Positions 1 through 8,360 of a stretch of 58,246 nucleotides of DNA are shown one piece after another. The stretch is from Verrucomicrobiota bacterium (GTDB lineage Bacteria > Verrucomicrobiota > Verrucomicrobiia > Limisphaerales > UBA9464): the NCBI GenBank assembly GCA_016871615.1, contig VHCX01000017.1:1-58246 (forward strand). Reading direction: 5' to 3'. The position numbers and the translations under genes are program-made. The notes beneath the pieces were generated by a model that saw only the letters and a program-made list of their open reading frames with translations, did no database searches and had not been told where the DNA came from. Position 1 is the first letter of the stretch, and the number at the start of each line of letters is the position of its first letter.

Positions 1-52
1 TGGAAGCCTCAAGCGGCCTGACCGCTGAGGTGGACCGGGTAGCGGTGGCGGC
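1..52 (+). repeat. IS66-type 3' end copy, inverted match to 3716-3767
   Basis: The first 52 bases match the reverse complement of 3716-3767 with about three mismatches. At the second site this sequence lies just 3' of an IS66 transposase stop codon, so here it should be the tail of another IS66-like copy that lies outside the window on the left and is transcribed rightwards. No coding part of that copy is visible. The exact element boundary cannot be fixed without the left flank. Confidence 0.6.
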
Positions 53-198
53 GGGTAGTCGAAGACAAACCCGGAATCATCACACCCTCAAGCCGGTGTG
101 GGAACCATGGGGTTCGGCGTACGGATATAATCAAGTTACGTGTCTGCGGTACTCGACCCCCGAGCCAACGCAGCAACTGGCGAAAAGGCCCGCCGCAC

Positions 199-2732: not shown

Positions 2733-3278
2733 TCATCGGTGGCGGACAACCCGTTTGACCAACCGATCCAGGCGGGCCAACGCCAGGGGTTTCCCGTCAT
2801 CCGTCTTGAACGGGGTGTTGATCAAGCGCTCACGCAGCGTCTCTGCCGCCACCAGCCCGTGGCGAAGCAAGGTTGCTATGAAGTCCAGGTCCTTTTCTCT
2901 CGCAGCGACCAGCTTGCTCACCGCCAAGTCGTGCGGTTCAAGGCACCAACCGATGCTGCCGCGGGTGTTCTCATTCTCCACTCGCACGAGGCGCTCCCGC
3001 CAACCGGTAGGCAAAACCGCCGTGGTTTCATCCACACCGTGTGCGTAGTAGCCGAAGGTCTCGTGGAACATCGACCGCTCACCGATCGATCCATCGATGA
3101 CGATCGAAAGTTCCGGGCGATCCTTCGGGAAAACGTCCGCCTCCATCGACGCGAGCAGGTCTTCGGGAGCATTCGGGAATGCCCCCAGGATGGACTGGCT
3201 CCCAATCACCACGATCTCACGAACGTCGGCATTGCCGGCGGCCGCGCGGATGACGTGCTCAAGCTGATTGCGAGTCAC
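2733..3278 (-). CDS. DUF6036 family nucleotidyltransferase (toxin-like partner)
   Basis: A 181-residue protein of the DUF6036 group, nucleotidyltransferase-fold proteins related in layout to the MNT/AbiEii toxins. The active-site strand-loop GSQS (residues 26-29) is followed by an acidic EADVF motif (46-50), the expected metal-binding pair of the fold. Downstream there is FHETFGYYAHGVDETTAVLP and a helical C-terminus with HDLAVSKL. Its start overlaps the end of the upstream small gene by 20 bases, so the two are translated as a pair. A role as the enzymatic half of a toxin-antitoxin or defence module is inferred from the fold and the pairing; no substrate is known. Confidence 0.8.
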   Translation of the reverse strand: MTRNQLEHVIRAAAGNADVREIVVIGSQSILGAFPNAPEDLLASMEADVFPKDRPELSIVIDGSIGERSMFHETFGYYAHGVDETTAVLPTGWRERLVRVENENTRGSIGWCLEPHDLAVSKLVAAREKDLDFIATLLRHGLVAAETLRERLINTPFKTDDGKPLALARLDRLVKRVVRHR

Positions 3279-3588
3279 GGGTGGAAAAGCGCTTCAGGAT
3301 GTCGGTTCGCTCCGACACGGTCAAAAGACCGGCAAACGGGCTCGATTGCCGGAGACGGGTGGCCCGTGGGTCGGTGCTCAGCAGAACGGAAATCACCTCG
3401 GGCAGCGGCTGCTGGAGCAACGCCTGCCACTCCATCAACACGGGGCGAACCCTGGGGGAACAGGTCTTCAACCACCGGTCCAGAGTTGCAAGAGCACGCT
3501 CCACCAAGGCCGGATTCGCCAAGAGCCTCTGAGCCGTGCTCTGGTCCATGGCAAGACTCCGCAGGTCGATTTGCTGATGCTTGCTCAT
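3259..3588 (-). CDS. small antitoxin-like protein paired with the DUF6036 nucleotidyltransferase
   Basis: A 109-residue helical protein beginning MSKHQQIDLRSLAM and ending with LRQSSPFAGLLTVSERTDIL and a basic tail. I recall similar small proteins directly ahead of DUF6036 nucleotidyltransferases, always in this order. It overlaps the next gene by 20 bases. The pattern (small helical gene first, enzyme second, overlapping) is that of a toxin-antitoxin operon, so it is the likely antitoxin or regulator. The start at 3588 is chosen because upstream residues in this frame are IS66-derived shadow sequence. No DNA-binding motif is evident. Confidence 0.75.
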   Translation of the reverse strand: MSKHQQIDLRSLAMDQSTAQRLLANPALVERALATLDRWLKTCSPRVRPVLMEWQALLQQPLPEVISVLLSTDPRATRLRQSSPFAGLLTVSERTDILKRFSTRDSQSA

Positions 3589-3715
3589 TAGACAGGTGGT
3601 GAATAGACGCTGAACCTTGGCATGGCAAGCGACCTCCATGCTTCGCCGGCCCGCGGCTCTGCCCTGGTGGCGGACTGGCATGACCAGGGGTTGGGGGGAT
3701 GCCAGTGGACGACCG

Positions 3716-3926
3716 GCCGCCACCGCTCCCCGGTCCACCTCAGCGGTCAGGCCGCCTGAGGCTTCCAGTTTCAGGATGGCAACTCGGGCAGGTTGGCTTG
3801 GGTGCAGGTCGGGATCCGACGCAATACGTCGGTCAACCAGGTCGCGGGATTCAGGCGATACCGGCGGGCGGTGATCAGCAGACTGTAGATCACCGCGCTC
3901 CGCCATCCGGCGTCCGGGTGAAAAGG
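3716..3926 (-). mobile_element. IS66-family transposase C-terminal remnant with 3' flank
   Basis: Read on the minus strand, 3926-3771 translates to HPDAGWRSAVIYSLL...NPATWLTDVLRRIPTC...LPELPS and a stop at 3771. This is the conserved C-terminus of the IS66 TnpC transposase (AVIYSL...YLTDVLxRLP). The reading frame is cut upstream at about 3927, immediately beside the inverted-repeat element at 3935. The sequence just 3' of the stop (3716-3767) recurs inverted at the window start. The N-terminal and catalytic parts are absent, so the element is dead. Confidence 0.8.
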
Positions 3927-3934
3927 TACAAAAA

Positions 3935-4192
3935 GGGGTCAGTTCTTGATATTGTTTACTATTCACCAAGCCTCCTCCGCCGGTAAAAGTGATGGTTCAG
4001 ATAACCGCTCGTGCCCATTGCCAGACGCTCGGCGATCCACCCAACCGTCATCGTTGTCTCCGCCCGCCAGCGCGCCGCCAAAGCCACCTTCACTGGATCT
4101 CCCTCGGTCCGAGCGTACTCGACTCTCAACTTCCGGATCATGGCGGGAGAGCGCTTTGGGCGCTTCATGTATCAATATCAAGAACTGACCCC
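3935..4192 (-). mobile_element. 258-bp MITE-like RAYT derivative with perfect 20-bp inverted ends
   Basis: The element is bounded by GGGGTCAGTTCTTGATATTG at 3935-3954 and its exact reverse complement at 4173-4192. The interior holds a single short ORF that encodes only the C-terminal part of a REP-associated tyrosine transposase. It therefore looks like a non-autonomous, internally deleted derivative mobilised by a full-length RAYT elsewhere. On the left it abuts an IS66 remnant and on the right a truncated cyclase gene, so the flanks are not two halves of one target. Confidence 0.8.
3959..4168 (-). CDS. RAYT (REP-associated tyrosine transposase) C-terminal fragment
   Basis: An intact 69-residue ORF starting 5 bases inside the right inverted repeat and ending 5 bases inside the left one. 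KVALAARWRAETTMTVGWIAERLAMG is broken here as KVALAARWRAETTMT followed by VGWIAERLAMG; this helix-turn-helix-like segment is the usual tail of RAYT proteins. The HUH motif and catalytic tyrosine are missing, so it cannot transpose DNA. Whether this peptide is made is unknown; if so, it could bind REP or element ends. The ATG at 4168 shares a CATG palindrome with an opposite-strand ATG. Confidence 0.6.
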   Translation of the reverse strand: MKRPKRSPAMIRKLRVEYARTEGDPVKVALAARWRAETTMTVGWIAERLAMGTSGYLNHHFYRRRRLGE

Positions 4193-4949
4193 AGTTCGGG
4201 CGCGCACCGCTGAGCTGGTGACCGCGCGCACGGAAGCCGAGGACGCCCGCGACCGTGCAGACGGTCTGCTGCACAACATGCTGCCCCGGCGCGTGGTGGA
4301 CGAGCTCAAAGCGGCGGGCAGCTATCCAAGCCGTCACATTCCTTCGGCCACGGTGCTGTTCCCCGACTTCCAGGGCTTCACCGCAGCCTCAGAGCGGATG
4401 GCGCCGACCGATCTGGTGGCCGAGCTTGAGCGCTGCTTCGGCGCTTTTGATCGGGTCGTCGACCGCAACGGCGGGGAGAAGGTCAAGACCATCGGCGACG
4501 CGTACATGGCGATCGGTGGCGCCCCCATCCCCAACCGCACCCACCCGGTGGACTGCGTGCTGGCGGCCCTGCAGATGCGCGACCATATGGCCGCGCCCGG
4601 CCCCGACGGCCAGCCTGCCCTCTTCGCGCTGCGGATCGGGGTGCACACCGGACCGCTGGTGGCCGGGGTCATCGGCGAGCGCCGCCTCGCCTCCGACGTA
4701 TGGGGCGACACGGTGAACACCGCGAGCCGCATGGAGAGCAACGGCGCGGTCGGTCGGGTCAATGTGAGCGCCGCCACATGGGCCACCGTCCAGGGCTTTT
4801 TCGTCGGAACCCCCCGCGGGAAGGTCGCCGCCAAAGGCAAAGGTGAGGTCGAGATGGTCCTTGTCGACGGCATCCGCCCTGAGCTGAGCGTCGATGGAGA
4901 GGACCGCGCCCCCACCGGCGCATTCTGGGCGCTGCGCTCAGCGCTCTGA
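4167..4949 (+). pseudogene. class III adenylate/guanylate cyclase, 5'-truncated at an inserted element
   Basis: The catalytic domain is complete. DFQGFT carries the first metal-binding Asp (residue 67 from the ATG at 4167) and GEKVKTIGDAYMA the second (D111) with a purine-selecting Lys nearby. WGDTVNTASRMES gives the Asn and Arg of the transition-state pair (N184, R188). A helical linker (residues 11-50, with HNMLPRRVVDELK) precedes it, as in cyclases with N-terminal sensor or HAMP modules, but everything before base 4193 is mobile-element sequence, so the sensor part is lost. By chance the inverted repeat supplies an in-frame ATG (MYQYQELTPV...). The product could still be an unregulated soluble cyclase. 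Style resembles Myxococcota. Confidence 0.75.
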
Positions 4950-4989
4950 GCCTGCAGCGGCCCGGGACAAGGCGGGCACGCCCCAGCGG

Positions 4990-5017
4990 TTGACGCGGGC
5001 GCCCGCCGGAGTAAGGC
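4990..5017 (+). promoter_or_regulatory. possible sigma70-type promoter ahead of cobT
   Basis: TTGACG at 4990-4995, a 16-base spacer and TAAGGC at 5012-5017 lie between the cyclase and cobT. The -10 match is poor. I see no cobalamin riboswitch (no B12 box) in the 166-base gap. Confidence 0.2.
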
Positions 5018-5115
5018 TGATCGGGAGATCTCGCTGTGCCTGTGGACACCCACCGCGACGCCAATCGCGCGCAACGCGAGGGCGCGCACACCCCTCCGCT
5101 CGTCGACAAGCACGC

Positions 5116-6207
5116 ATGCTGACCGATACCCTCACGCAGATCGGCGCACCACGCCCGACCAGCGCGGCTGCCGCGCAGCTCGCCCGCGCGCGCGTCGATC
5201 AGCTCACAAAGCCGTTGGGCGCGCTCGGCGTGCTCGAGCCGCTCGTCGTGCAGCTCGCAGCGGCGTTTAACGAGGAGCGGCCCCGCGTCGATCCGATCGG
5301 AGCCCTCATCTTCGCTGCCGACCACGGGGTCGCCCTGCGGGGTGTTTCTGCCTACCCGAGGGAGGTCACCGCCGCCATGCTCGGGGCCTTTGCGCGGGGC
5401 ACTGCGGCTGCCTCGGTGATGGCACGCGCGCTCGCCGTCCCGCTCACGGTGTGGGACGTCGGCGTCGCGCGGCCCGCGGGCGCCGCTGAGCCGCGCTCGG
5501 GCGTGCGCGTCCGCCCGACCGTGCTCGCCGGCCGGCCGAGCGAAGACCTCACTGGTGGCGCGGCGCTCGACCGGGGGAGGCTGGCCGCTGCGCTCGCGGC
5601 CGGCGCGCATGCGGTCGACGTGATTCGGCACGAGCACCCCGAGACACGCACCTTCGTGCTCGGCGAGATCGGGATCGGCAACACGACCCCCGCCGCCTGC
5701 GTCGCCAGCGCGCTGCTGGGCTTGCCCGTCGACGCCGTGCTGGGCCGCGGCACCGGGCTCGACGACCCGGGCCTTTTGCGCAAGCGCGCTGCGATCGAGG
5801 CCGGCCTGTCCCGACTCGGCGCGGAGCGTGACCCGCTCGCGGTGCTCGGCGCCGTGGGGGGAGCTGAGCTCGCCGCGATGACCGCGGCCGCCCTCCGCGT
5901 GGCCCACCACGGAGGTGTCGTGCTCGTCGACGGTGTGGTGGCCACAGCCTCCATGATCGCGGCGCTGGCCCTCGAGCCGACGCTGCGCCCGCGACTCGTG
6001 TTCGCGCATGCCTCCGGCGACGCCGCCCATGCGGCGATGCTGCGGGCGCTGGGCGTCCGCCCGCTTCTCGAGCTGGGGATGCGCCTCGGCGAGGGGACCG
6101 GCGCGCTCGCGGCCGTGCCGCTGCTCCGCCTCGCCGCGACGACCGCGGCAGAAATGCAGACCTTCGCCGAGGCGGCCGTTCCCGATCGCGAGAGGGGCGG
6201 CCCATGA
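5116..6207 (+). CDS. cobT: nicotinate-nucleotide--dimethylbenzimidazole phosphoribosyltransferase CobT
   Basis: A 363-residue enzyme that makes alpha-ribazole phosphate from nicotinate mononucleotide and dimethylbenzimidazole, for the lower ligand of cobalamin. Diagnostic segments are LTKPLGALGVLE near the N-terminus, IFAADHGV, the glycine-rich GEIGIGNTT substrate loop and RLGEGTGA near residue 330, which contains the catalytic Glu. Length matches the family. The ATG at 5116 is chosen because the recognisable N-terminus begins there. It overlaps cobS by 4 bases (ATGA), forming cobT-cobS-cobC, the nucleotide-loop assembly set. No other corrin genes are in the window, so this would serve late steps or salvage. 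Confidence 0.93.
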   Translation: MLTDTLTQIGAPRPTSAAAAQLARARVDQLTKPLGALGVLEPLVVQLAAAFNEERPRVDPIGALIFAADHGVALRGVSAYPREVTAAMLGAFARGTAAASVMARALAVPLTVWDVGVARPAGAAEPRSGVRVRPTVLAGRPSEDLTGGAALDRGRLAAALAAGAHAVDVIRHEHPETRTFVLGEIGIGNTTPAACVASALLGLPVDAVLGRGTGLDDPGLLRKRAAIEAGLSRLGAERDPLAVLGAVGGAELAAMTAAALRVAHHGGVVLVDGVVATASMIAALALEPTLRPRLVFAHASGDAAHAAMLRALGVRPLLELGMRLGEGTGALAAVPLLRLAATTAAEMQTFAEAAVPDRERGGP

Positions 6208-6974
6208 TGCCGCCCATCGTGCGGGGGGCGCGCGCCGCGTTCGTGTTCCTGACCCGCATTCCACTCGGGGGCTGGCCGTACCGGCCCGAGGACTGGCGGT
6301 GGTCCACCGCACACTTCCCGCTGGTCGGGGCGTGCCTCGGTGCCGTCCTCGCGCTCGCACTCGGCTGGCTCCGCGACGGCCTCGGCATCACCGCAGCAGC
6401 CTGGCTGGTGTTGGCGATCTCGACGCTGCTGACCGGTGCCTTTCACGAAGACGGCCTCGCAGACACATCCGACGCGCTCGGCGGGGCGTACGACCGAGAG
6501 AAGCTCTTCATCATCCTCAAAGACAGCCGCATCGGCAGCTTCGGAGCTGTGGCGCTGATCGTGGCGCTCGGGGCCAAAATCGCCTTGCTGGCCCGGCTTG
6601 ATGCGGCCGCGCCCATGGCTCTCTTTGTGGTCAGCGCGCTGGCGCGCCTGCCGCCCATCGCGCTGATGACCCTCATGCCATACACGACCCGCCCCGACGA
6701 AGCCAAGAGCCGCGACGTCGCGCGCGCCGGCGTGGCCCAGTTGGCGGTGGCCGCGCTGTGGACCGGCCTTATCCTCGCCGTCGCCGTCTGGATGCTCGGC
6801 CTCGGTCTGCCGGCGCTGGCGCGGGCGCTGGTGGTGAGCAGCGTGGTGACGGGAGTCCTCGCGTGGCGCTTCCATGTCCGCGCGGGCGGCATCACCGGCG
6901 ACTTCCTCGGCACCACGGAGCAGCTCGTCGAGGTCGGGGCGCTCGCCGCCCTGGCGTGGGGCGTGGCCGCATGA
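6204..6974 (+). CDS. cobS: adenosylcobinamide-GDP ribazoletransferase (cobalamin synthase) CobS
   Basis: A 256-residue polytopic inner-membrane enzyme joining adenosylcobinamide-GDP with alpha-ribazole (phosphate). FLTRIPLGG near the N-terminus and the metal-binding motif FHEDGLADTSDALGG (about residues 80-94) are characteristic, followed by DSRIGSFG and several Ala/Leu/Val-rich membrane segments. It starts inside the cobT stop (ATGA overlap) and ends overlapping the cobC start by 4 bases, so the three genes are translationally coupled. Confidence 0.93.
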   Translation: MMPPIVRGARAAFVFLTRIPLGGWPYRPEDWRWSTAHFPLVGACLGAVLALALGWLRDGLGITAAAWLVLAISTLLTGAFHEDGLADTSDALGGAYDREKLFIILKDSRIGSFGAVALIVALGAKIALLARLDAAAPMALFVVSALARLPPIALMTLMPYTTRPDEAKSRDVARAGVAQLAVAALWTGLILAVAVWMLGLGLPALARALVVSSVVTGVLAWRFHVRAGGITGDFLGTTEQLVEVGALAALAWGVAA

Positions 6975-7549
6975 GCCTGCGCCTCCACTGTGTGCGGCAC
7001 GCGCCGACAGACTGCGCCGGATTCGCGGTGGGTCGCACCGACGTCCCCACGGTGATGGCCGCCGGCGACGCGGCCGACCGCATCGACGCCACCCTTCCCG
7101 TCGACATCTCCGCGGTGTGGAGCTCCCCATCACGGCGCTGCCGAGAGCCCGCGGCTCTCATCGCCGCGCGCCGCGGCGTTCCCCATCACGTCGACCCCGA
7201 CTTGCACGAGCTCGACCAGGGCATCTTCGAGGGCCGAGCCTACCGCGATCTGGAGCGGGAGGAGCCGCAGGCGCTTAGCGCATGGATGGAGAGCTGGATC
7301 GATCGGGGTCCACCGGGAGGAGAGGGCGCCCGGGACCTAGAGCGACGGGTCGGACGGTGGTTGGCCGCGCGGCGCACCGAGGCCCCATCAGACGTCGCCG
7401 TCGTGGCGCACGCGGGCGTCATTCGGGCCCTCCGTGTGCTCATCGAGCGCCAGACGTGGGAGGCGGTGATGGGCGCGCCGGTGCCGCACCTCGAGCGGGT
7501 CGAGCTCCTCGCGCCGGACCTGCGCAAAACCGACCGCCGAGATCACTGA
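6971..7549 (+). CDS. cobC: histidine phosphatase family protein, CobC-type alpha-ribazole phosphatase
   Basis: A 192-residue phosphoglycerate-mutase-like phosphatase. The N-terminal VRHAPTD holds the catalytic His in place of the usual RHGxT. SSPSRRCREPA is the conserved second arginine region, HELDQGIFEGRAY the Glu-containing family motif, and VVAHAGVIRAL carries the second catalytic His. Position directly after cobS (4-base overlap) supports dephosphorylation of alpha-ribazole-5'-phosphate or of the CobS product. The fold alone is broad, so the specific role rests on context. Confidence 0.85.
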   Translation: MSLRLHCVRHAPTDCAGFAVGRTDVPTVMAAGDAADRIDATLPVDISAVWSSPSRRCREPAALIAARRGVPHHVDPDLHELDQGIFEGRAYRDLEREEPQALSAWMESWIDRGPPGGEGARDLERRVGRWLAARRTEAPSDVAVVAHAGVIRALRVLIERQTWEAVMGAPVPHLERVELLAPDLRKTDRRDH

Positions 7550-7935
7550 CGCGGCGAGAGTCAGACTCGGGGGCGCCGGGCTCGAGGCACCGGGCCGATT
7601 CGGTCGTCCTGCACATCGCCTCGCGATCGCCCTCAGACACGGCCAAGGGCCCAGGCGCACGGGTCGGGCCGGCCATACCGACACACTCCGTGCCAAACCG
7701 CCGCACCGGCGGATAGGACCTCCGAGCGGATGACCTCCGCCGAAGGCGGTCGTTGACGGTCAACCAGTGCAGGTTCGCCGCGGGGCGCCGATCCGTCAAA
7801 TGGCCTCCAGGGCCCGGCGCTGGCTCGTCAGGGCGCGCTGGGGCGCTGCTGCGGGCGCCTCGGATACGGCCGGACCTACTCGCTGGCGCGGGTCGCGGGC
7901 GAGGAGTGTGCTCGGCGGGGCAAAGGGGCGGTGGT
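7550..7935. other. non-coding stretch between cobC and an IS91 remnant
   Basis: I see no convincing gene here. The reading frames present have random composition on both strands. Since the IS91-type remnant reads leftwards and stops at 7936, part of this stretch is presumably the 3' flank of that insertion sequence. No clear terminal repeat was found. Confidence 0.4.
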
Positions 7936-8190
7936 TCAGGCGAAGTCGAGCTGTTCGCGCGAGCGCGCCGGTGCGGGCCGTGGAGGCTCGGTCGGGTGGC
8001 CGAGGTGCGCGAGGATCTTGCGCACGACGACTGGGTCTGTGAGCTGCGCTATGAGGCGGCGTGGGCCGCCGCAATGCGGGCAGGTGAGGACGTCGATGGC
8101 GAAGGCGATGGCGGGGCGGGCGATGTACCGGCAGAGTCGCTCGAGTCCAGTGAGGTCGTGGCCTTCGATCAGGACCTTGGCGCGCGCCGT
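7936..8190 (-). pseudogene. IS91-family transposase remnant with internal deletion
   Basis: The minus frame reads GHDLTGLERLCRYIARPA, which matches the middle of IS91-type transposases (just after the catalytic region), and then jumps straight to FAIDVLTCPHCGGPRRLIA...PVVVRKILAHLGHPTEPP, the family C-terminus with its CPxCGG zinc motif. The stretch normally lying between these two blocks is missing, as is the N-terminal zinc finger and tyrosine region. It is an inactive relic, of the kind common in Myxococcota genomes. It marks the right side of the cob block. Confidence 0.7.
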
Positions 8191-8360
8191 TGCTGAGTCC
8201 GTTGCCTGACAAGAGGAATCCAATACGCTGCGAGATGGCAGGCGGTGGGATGGTGACGGGAGCCCGGAGGGCGACCGGAACCATCCCCCCCGCCTGAGGC
8301 GGTCACAACACCCACCCACGACAGAGATGGAGGCTGGAGACCTTGGGCGTTCCACGGGCG

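Follow-up and report, generated by a model that had tools for sequence, protein, structure and literature searches.

The window, as we term the whole stretch of 58,246 nucleotides that was analysed, carries a 258-bp element at positions 3935-4192, and this element is bounded by perfect 20-bp inverted ends. The two arms are complementary at 20 of 20 positions and are separated by 218 nt, and the space between them is occupied by a minus-strand ORF of 69 codons (Table 1), just as the preliminary description of this locus had reported. Allowing up to 3 mismatches, the window has no further occurrence of the 20-mer, and 100 shuffled sequences yielded no match. The ORF opens at an in-frame ATG upstream of the native start codon (4141), which adds the first 9 of its 69 codons. 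A scan of positions 3700-4500, which covered the sigma-70-like type alone, found no promoter of this type. The element lies between a 5'-truncated cyclase gene and a fragment of another dispersed repeat.

Table 1. Coordinates of the element, its parts and its flanks in the window
Feature	Position	Strand	Remark
Inverted end (right end in transposase orientation)	3935-3954	+	GGGGTCAGTTCTTGATATTG; AAAAA just outside
Inverted end (left end in transposase orientation), same 20-mer	4173-4192	-	Outer AAA absent, ACT there instead
ORF of 69 codons and a stop, joining the transposase N-terminus in frame to the C-terminus	3959-4168	-	
Stretch that aligns with the native frame of the transposase, from its start codon: 60 codons and stop	3959-4141	-	
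Deletion junction, counterparts of parent residues 10 and 262	4111-4112	-	Same junction in G007:C22:11016-11278
Flank: 5'-truncated guanylate/adenylate cyclase	4193-4949	+	
Flank: other dispersed repeat, fragment	3708-3920		Ends 14 bp short of the element

With up to 3 mismatches allowed, the 20-mer is matched 14 times in the same genome (0 for the reversed control), and two of these matches bound a 1012-bp copy (C103:7527-8538) with an intact ORF of 312 amino acids. This ORF encodes a Y1 transposase, so that a full-length relative with the same ends, which the preliminary description had named as a check, does exist. Intact full-length copies are also found in the genomes G018 and G007, and the 1012-bp copies have 20-bp ends starting with GGGGTCAG on both sides, with 0-1 mismatches. 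When the window ORF is aligned to the full-length copy of its own genome, its translation from the native start is MIRKLRVEYA, corresponding to residues 1-10 of the transposase; at the junction 4112|4111 it passes in frame into the counterpart of residue 262 onward. The window element therefore lacks 251 codons of C103 (residues 11-261) with its frame kept, and its ORF consists of the N-terminal 10 residues fused to the last ~50; the earlier statement that it encodes only the RAYT C-terminal segment was inexact. The deleted part contains the HFH motif at 60-62 and Tyr121, both invariant in 7 of 7 aligned proteins, which would correspond to the HUH pair and the catalytic tyrosine according to the motifs given in PMC6006769.

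The full-length protein matches Pfam Y1_Tnp (PF01797) with an E-value of 3.3e-11, while its score against NCBIfam REP_Tyr_transpos is 49.3 bits, short of the equivalog cut-off of 80. By Foldseek and VIA-align (Z 9 to 11), its predicted fold matches the TnpA of IS608 and ISDra2 as well as the REP-associated transposase 4er8. By eye, the terminal inverted repeats begin with GGGGTCAG and not with GTAG. TIRYT elements share the TIR motif GGGGWSAS, according to PMC3733652, and the full-length copies have both long terminal inverted repeats with this motif and a Y1/HUH transposase domain. The C-terminus may provide a second link. The model of the full-length protein has a low mean pLDDT of 56 overall and 79-89 over residues 241-310, and residues 232-312 of this low-confidence model align with 8btg_B 350-431 (Z 8.9, rmsd 3.3 over 77 residues), a chain of an origin-unwinding complex whose residues 350-431 are, in our reading of the entry title and numbering, DnaA domain IV. 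The Pfam matches of the C-terminal segment to HTH families are weak and all under the cut-off, the best ones being PF24410 (0.0027) and HTH_31 (0.029). PMC6006769 describes TnpA-REP subclass 2.1, which probably corresponds to the TIRYTs, as having a C-terminal extension similar to Bac_DnaA_C, HTH_23 or HTH_28. From its GGGGTCAG ends and its DnaA-domain-IV-like C-terminus, we place the parent closest, among RAYT-like enzymes, to the TIR-associated branch (TIRYT). The attribution of the window element to a RAYT thus stands as far as a RAYT-like transposase is concerned, but the nearer branch is the TIR-associated one and not the REP-associated one. The window peptide itself retains the last three predicted helices (267-309) and misses the earlier ones. 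Its model is moderate (pLDDT 77.5, pTM 0.42), a Foldseek search of the 69-residue peptide against the PDB gave no match at E up to 10, and the two matches from a PDB profile search are at chance level (E 0.52 and 0.68).

A DNA match to the element was found in 38 of 145 related genomes, its own included, in a scan that scored 5 candidates per genome, which makes the copy numbers lower bounds. All 48 named loci encoding a relative belong to metagenome bins titled as Verrucomicrobia groups; many are labelled Akkermansia muciniphila, one Pedosphaera and two Spartobacteria, and several titles suggest lakes. A pattern spanning the deletion junction, allowing 3 mismatches, detected the same two copies among 19 genomes of the genus and among 320 genomes of the order: that of the window and a second one, G007:C22:11016-11278, in a sister species. 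A copy with the same deletion point thus exists, and the element is neither a single copy nor devoid of a full-length relative with its ends, the two findings that had been named as fatal to its being a deletion derivative. The two copies are 87% identical over the element, and their flanks do not match each other. Their dS is 0.26 over 45 synonymous sites, compared with 0.14-0.21 among the three full-length copies; with such a divergence, the proposal of a recent origin is not borne out.

The two same-junction copies could have arisen in two ways, and we regard a single origin as likelier than two separate deletions. Two deletions in related parents would have produced the same junction independently, the derivative would never have spread, and both copies would be dead relics. 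The unrelated flanks fit this scenario, and over its left part the window copy shows 14 differences from G007:C22 and 10-13 from the full-length G018:C277, G007:C41 and C103; moreover, the longer copy G007:C157 has the same ACC beside the junction. However, the junctions are identical, by eye no more than 1-2 bp are shared at the break point, and a C at element position 33 is restricted to these two copies among 21 left parts. An A after the junction is found in just 5 of 50 right parts, namely those of the window, G007:C22, another two copies in G007 and one in G008 (aligned there with a gap), and the 5'-truncated G007:C42 also has the post-junction bases of the window copy, CCGAGGGAGATCC. 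Weighing these, we consider separate deletions to be the less probable course, although one to be taken seriously.

The window element is one member of a series. In the genus, 91 matches were obtained in 15 of 19 genomes, and 60 stretches were fetched, to which the window and the own-genome copy C106 were added; the fetched stretches L222 and L261-L265 lie outside the analysis. These gave 27 candidate elements, two of which were dropped (G007:C21, with more than 3 mismatches in its ends, and a G011 fragment consisting of a left end alone), while G008:C4 and G008:C18, each with one end beyond 3 mismatches, were placed by hand. The 25 two-ended copies thus resolved comprise 4 of 1012 bp, of which 3 are intact, and 21 internally deleted ones of 258 to 985 bp. 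Among these 21 derivatives, the native ATG reads into the C-terminal frame in 3 and the native stop is reached in 2, the window copy and G015:C309. The stop is lost in G007:C22, so that its frame runs through the element end, and G011:C153 is open over 249 codons with ACG as its start. Random stops in sister copies, which had been expected to speak against the frame being maintained, are therefore largely present at other junctions, whereas the same-junction G007:C22 is open, with its stop lost.

Another derivative, 87|683, adjoins one conserved left flank in G015, G011, G007 and G002, at differing distances, with related ends also in G001 and G005 and a right flank common to G015 and G011. 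The 105-codon frame of this derivative is open in G015 but closed in the three other genomes, of which G007 and G002 also show a second deletion. We read this derivative as probably decaying in place. The stretches L254, L255 and L257-L260 show the same derivative family beside this one conserved flank in six species and at varying distances; in G002 the derivative lies several hundred bp farther from the flank, and in G001 AAAGGGGTCAG is repeated ahead of it. This locus would be either a hot spot or the product of repeated local rearrangement. Elsewhere, L110, L136, L141 and L149 contain tandem 5'-truncated transposon right ends, 4-17 bp apart, each piece ending in the 20-mer with 0-1 mismatches and the outermost pieces of L110, L136 and L141 starting at a contig end. 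These arrays look as if new copies had landed next to an old end.

We can now examine whether the short frame is kept by selection, as had been proposed for a small end-binding peptide. Such a peptide, holding part of the DnaA-IV-like HTH, would compete with the transposase for the ends and repress it, or would mark the ends. The frame is open in both same-junction copies, and these differ by 10 synonymous and 10 non-synonymous changes, which gives a dN/dS of 0.30 (0.24 over the C-terminal 51 codons); the value for the three full-length copies is 0.24-0.26. The alignment of residues 232-312 of the full-length model with 8btg_B, of which the peptide retains the last three helices, also fits a role in binding. 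However, 28 copies judged unable to code by a frameshift, a lost start or the absence of a left end in the stretch (a group that is not perfectly clean, some copies, e.g., G007:C157, being cut by a contig end) gave 305 comparable pairs with a median dN/dS of 0.47, and 20% of these pairs are as low as 0.24. The value of the pair thus falls inside the spread seen among these copies, and selection on the peptide, which this low value seemed to indicate, was rejected, since neither these controls nor the frame decay seen elsewhere separate it from neutrality.

Changes private to single copies were counted over the C-terminal 51 codons: the window copy has 4 non-synonymous and 1 synonymous, G007:C22 has none, the three intact full-length copies have 0 non-synonymous and 3 synonymous, and 45 other copies have 62 non-synonymous, 24 synonymous and 3 stops, all these counts being biased against synonymous changes because the latter recur between copies. 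When changes are assigned by hand to the window branch, 7 are non-synonymous and 8 synonymous, a ratio that is that low in 3-7% of neutral runs and is a weak hint of constraint; in the neutral simulation with 15 changes, the frame is free of stops in 53-62% of runs. Further arguments against an end-binding peptide are the broken frames of most other derivatives, the overrun of the element end in G007:C22, the missing helices ahead of residue 262, the moderate model of the peptide with no PDB match, and the negative result of the sigma-70-like promoter scan, other promoter types being outside its range. We conclude that the sequence comparisons offer no reliable evidence for selection on the peptide, and we hold a frame kept by selection to be quite improbable. 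The broader idea, by which in-frame deletions of TIRYTs would repeatedly free the DnaA-IV-like HTH (60 codons here, 105 in the separate G015:C309) as a small DNA-binding protein that occupies the ends and restrains the full-length transposase, strikes us as very doubtful too. The frame of the window element is then best seen as a leftover.

Concerning movement, the contexts of the ends were tallied at the fetched loci, leaving out 20 of 121 contexts without an assignable side. AAA lies outside 21 of 30 left ends, that of the window not being among them, and outside 57 of 71 right ends; the true ends may therefore be slightly longer than 20 bp, and the missing outer AAA at the left end of the window element may mean that this copy is immobile. 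The consensus outside both ends is G-N-AAA, with the G at -5 present in 23 of the 30 left ends and in 42 of the 71 right ones; it is symmetric rather than a target duplication.

A clean empty site was found neither for the window element nor for G007:C22 among the genus genomes compared. The left flank of G007:C22 matches five places in G011, G017, G003 and G015 at ~95-99%, and at 4 of the 5 places the match ends 4 bp before the element (L221:2012-2017). Beyond that stop, one sequence is common to G011, G017 and G015:C304 and another is found in G003, and the right side of G007 continues neither. This break was rejected as an empty site on account of these two different continuations, in neither of which the G007 right side is found, and it looks like the border of some other repeat. 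On the non-cyclase side of the window element, positions 2765-3634 are matched in four genomes, and part of them in one more, after which comes the dispersed repeat at 3708-3920. Whole or partial matches to this repeat occur in at least 10 genomes of the genus, and a piece of it is also found at window positions 1-60 on the opposite strand. The own-genome contig C94, related to the 87|683 locus, reaches its end without an element and without a far side for comparison.

Among the other 18 genomes of the genus, none matches the cyclase side of the element at the DNA level. A plus-strand ORF of 312 codons (4011-4949) starts within the element and extends into the cyclase domain (Guanylate_cyc, E 1.7e-45; an HNOBA match at 3.6e-4 stays under the cut-off). 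That the element replaced the 5' part of the cyclase gene and supplies a new start for this fused frame is, in spite of the frame itself, highly improbable, as chance long frames are common here (94 ORFs of at least 40 amino acids overlap the first 10 kb), the scan for sigma-70-like promoters was negative, and the 18 other genomes hold no DNA relative of the cyclase for comparison. Window positions 4193-8250, the first 768 bp of which have no DNA match in these 18 genomes, reach a GC content of up to 70-76% and contain, besides the truncated cyclase, ORFs whose matches are cobT- and cobS-like. Among the 20 matches listed (24 records) in a plasmid search with the right flank, 19 fall in cobT or cobS and 1 has no annotated feature there. 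The region 4193-8250 is possibly acquired DNA that starts exactly at the element.

Taken as a whole, the window element is most probably an old, non-autonomous (MITE-like), internally deleted TIRYT derivative, whose frame is a leftover and whose movement would have occurred in trans. Comparison with the full-length copy shows that a ~1012-bp Y1 parent (HUH, IS200/IS605-like) lost 251 codons in frame. What remained were both 20-bp ends, the 10 N-terminal residues and, from the C-terminal DnaA-domain-IV-like HTH, its last three predicted helices. As the HUH and Tyr residues are absent, the element should not be able to cut DNA, and any movement, past or present, would be the work of a full-length enzyme acting in trans on its ends. 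Movement in trans would fit the copies at many loci, the intact full-length copies and the unrelated flanks of the same-junction pair. The controls described above suggest that the frame is open because the deletion happened in frame and later changes left it unclosed.

How does this element compare with known systems? It is short (258 bp), has inverted ends like those of a full-length copy in its own genome and encodes no complete transposase, as expected of a MITE, and the preliminary view of a MITE-like, internally deleted derivative is supported by these shared ends and by the second copy with the same junction. It shares with the MITEs of insertion sequences, as defined in PMC3733652, inverted ends of 15-30 bp, a size of 70-300 bp and a parent with the same ends; however, its parent is of the HUH type, two copies with the window junction were found, and it still has an open frame of 60-69 codons, although elements so defined have no coding capacity. 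The likeness to the TIRYTs or TIRtrons (PMC3733652; largely subclass 2.1 of PMC6006769) lies in the GGGGWSAS motif of the ends (GGGGTCAG here), in the Y1 domain with HUH and Tyr in the parent, probably in the C-terminal extension, there similar to Bac_DnaA_C, HTH_23 or HTH_28, and in the published TIRs being also single, dimeric or grouped. The difference is that the window copy is internally deleted and has no catalytic domain, and that its relatives in the genus are multi-copy with many deletion derivatives. With RAYTs and REPINs, as presented in PMC2817692 and PMC3116915, it shares a related Y1 transposase and small inverted-end derivatives that are proposed to be moved in trans, but the ends here begin with GGGGTCAG and not with a GTAG-type REP head, and there are several copies per genome, whereas the RAYTs of PMC3116915 are single-copy and apparently unable to move themselves.

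In the parts of the literature that the search covered, with few subscription papers among them, we found no description of TIRYT deletion derivatives; the term TIRYT turned up in two papers, and the branch appears little studied there. The TIRYT and MITE kinds are already known in outline, and the deletion series of the present genus is a new addition to them. A single genus lineage contains both intact full-length copies and graded internal deletions, with one deletion present in two species between flanks that are unrelated, while a second one persists, in decay, next to a single conserved flank. It thus provides a natural series for asking what an inverted-end HUH transposase needs in order to move.
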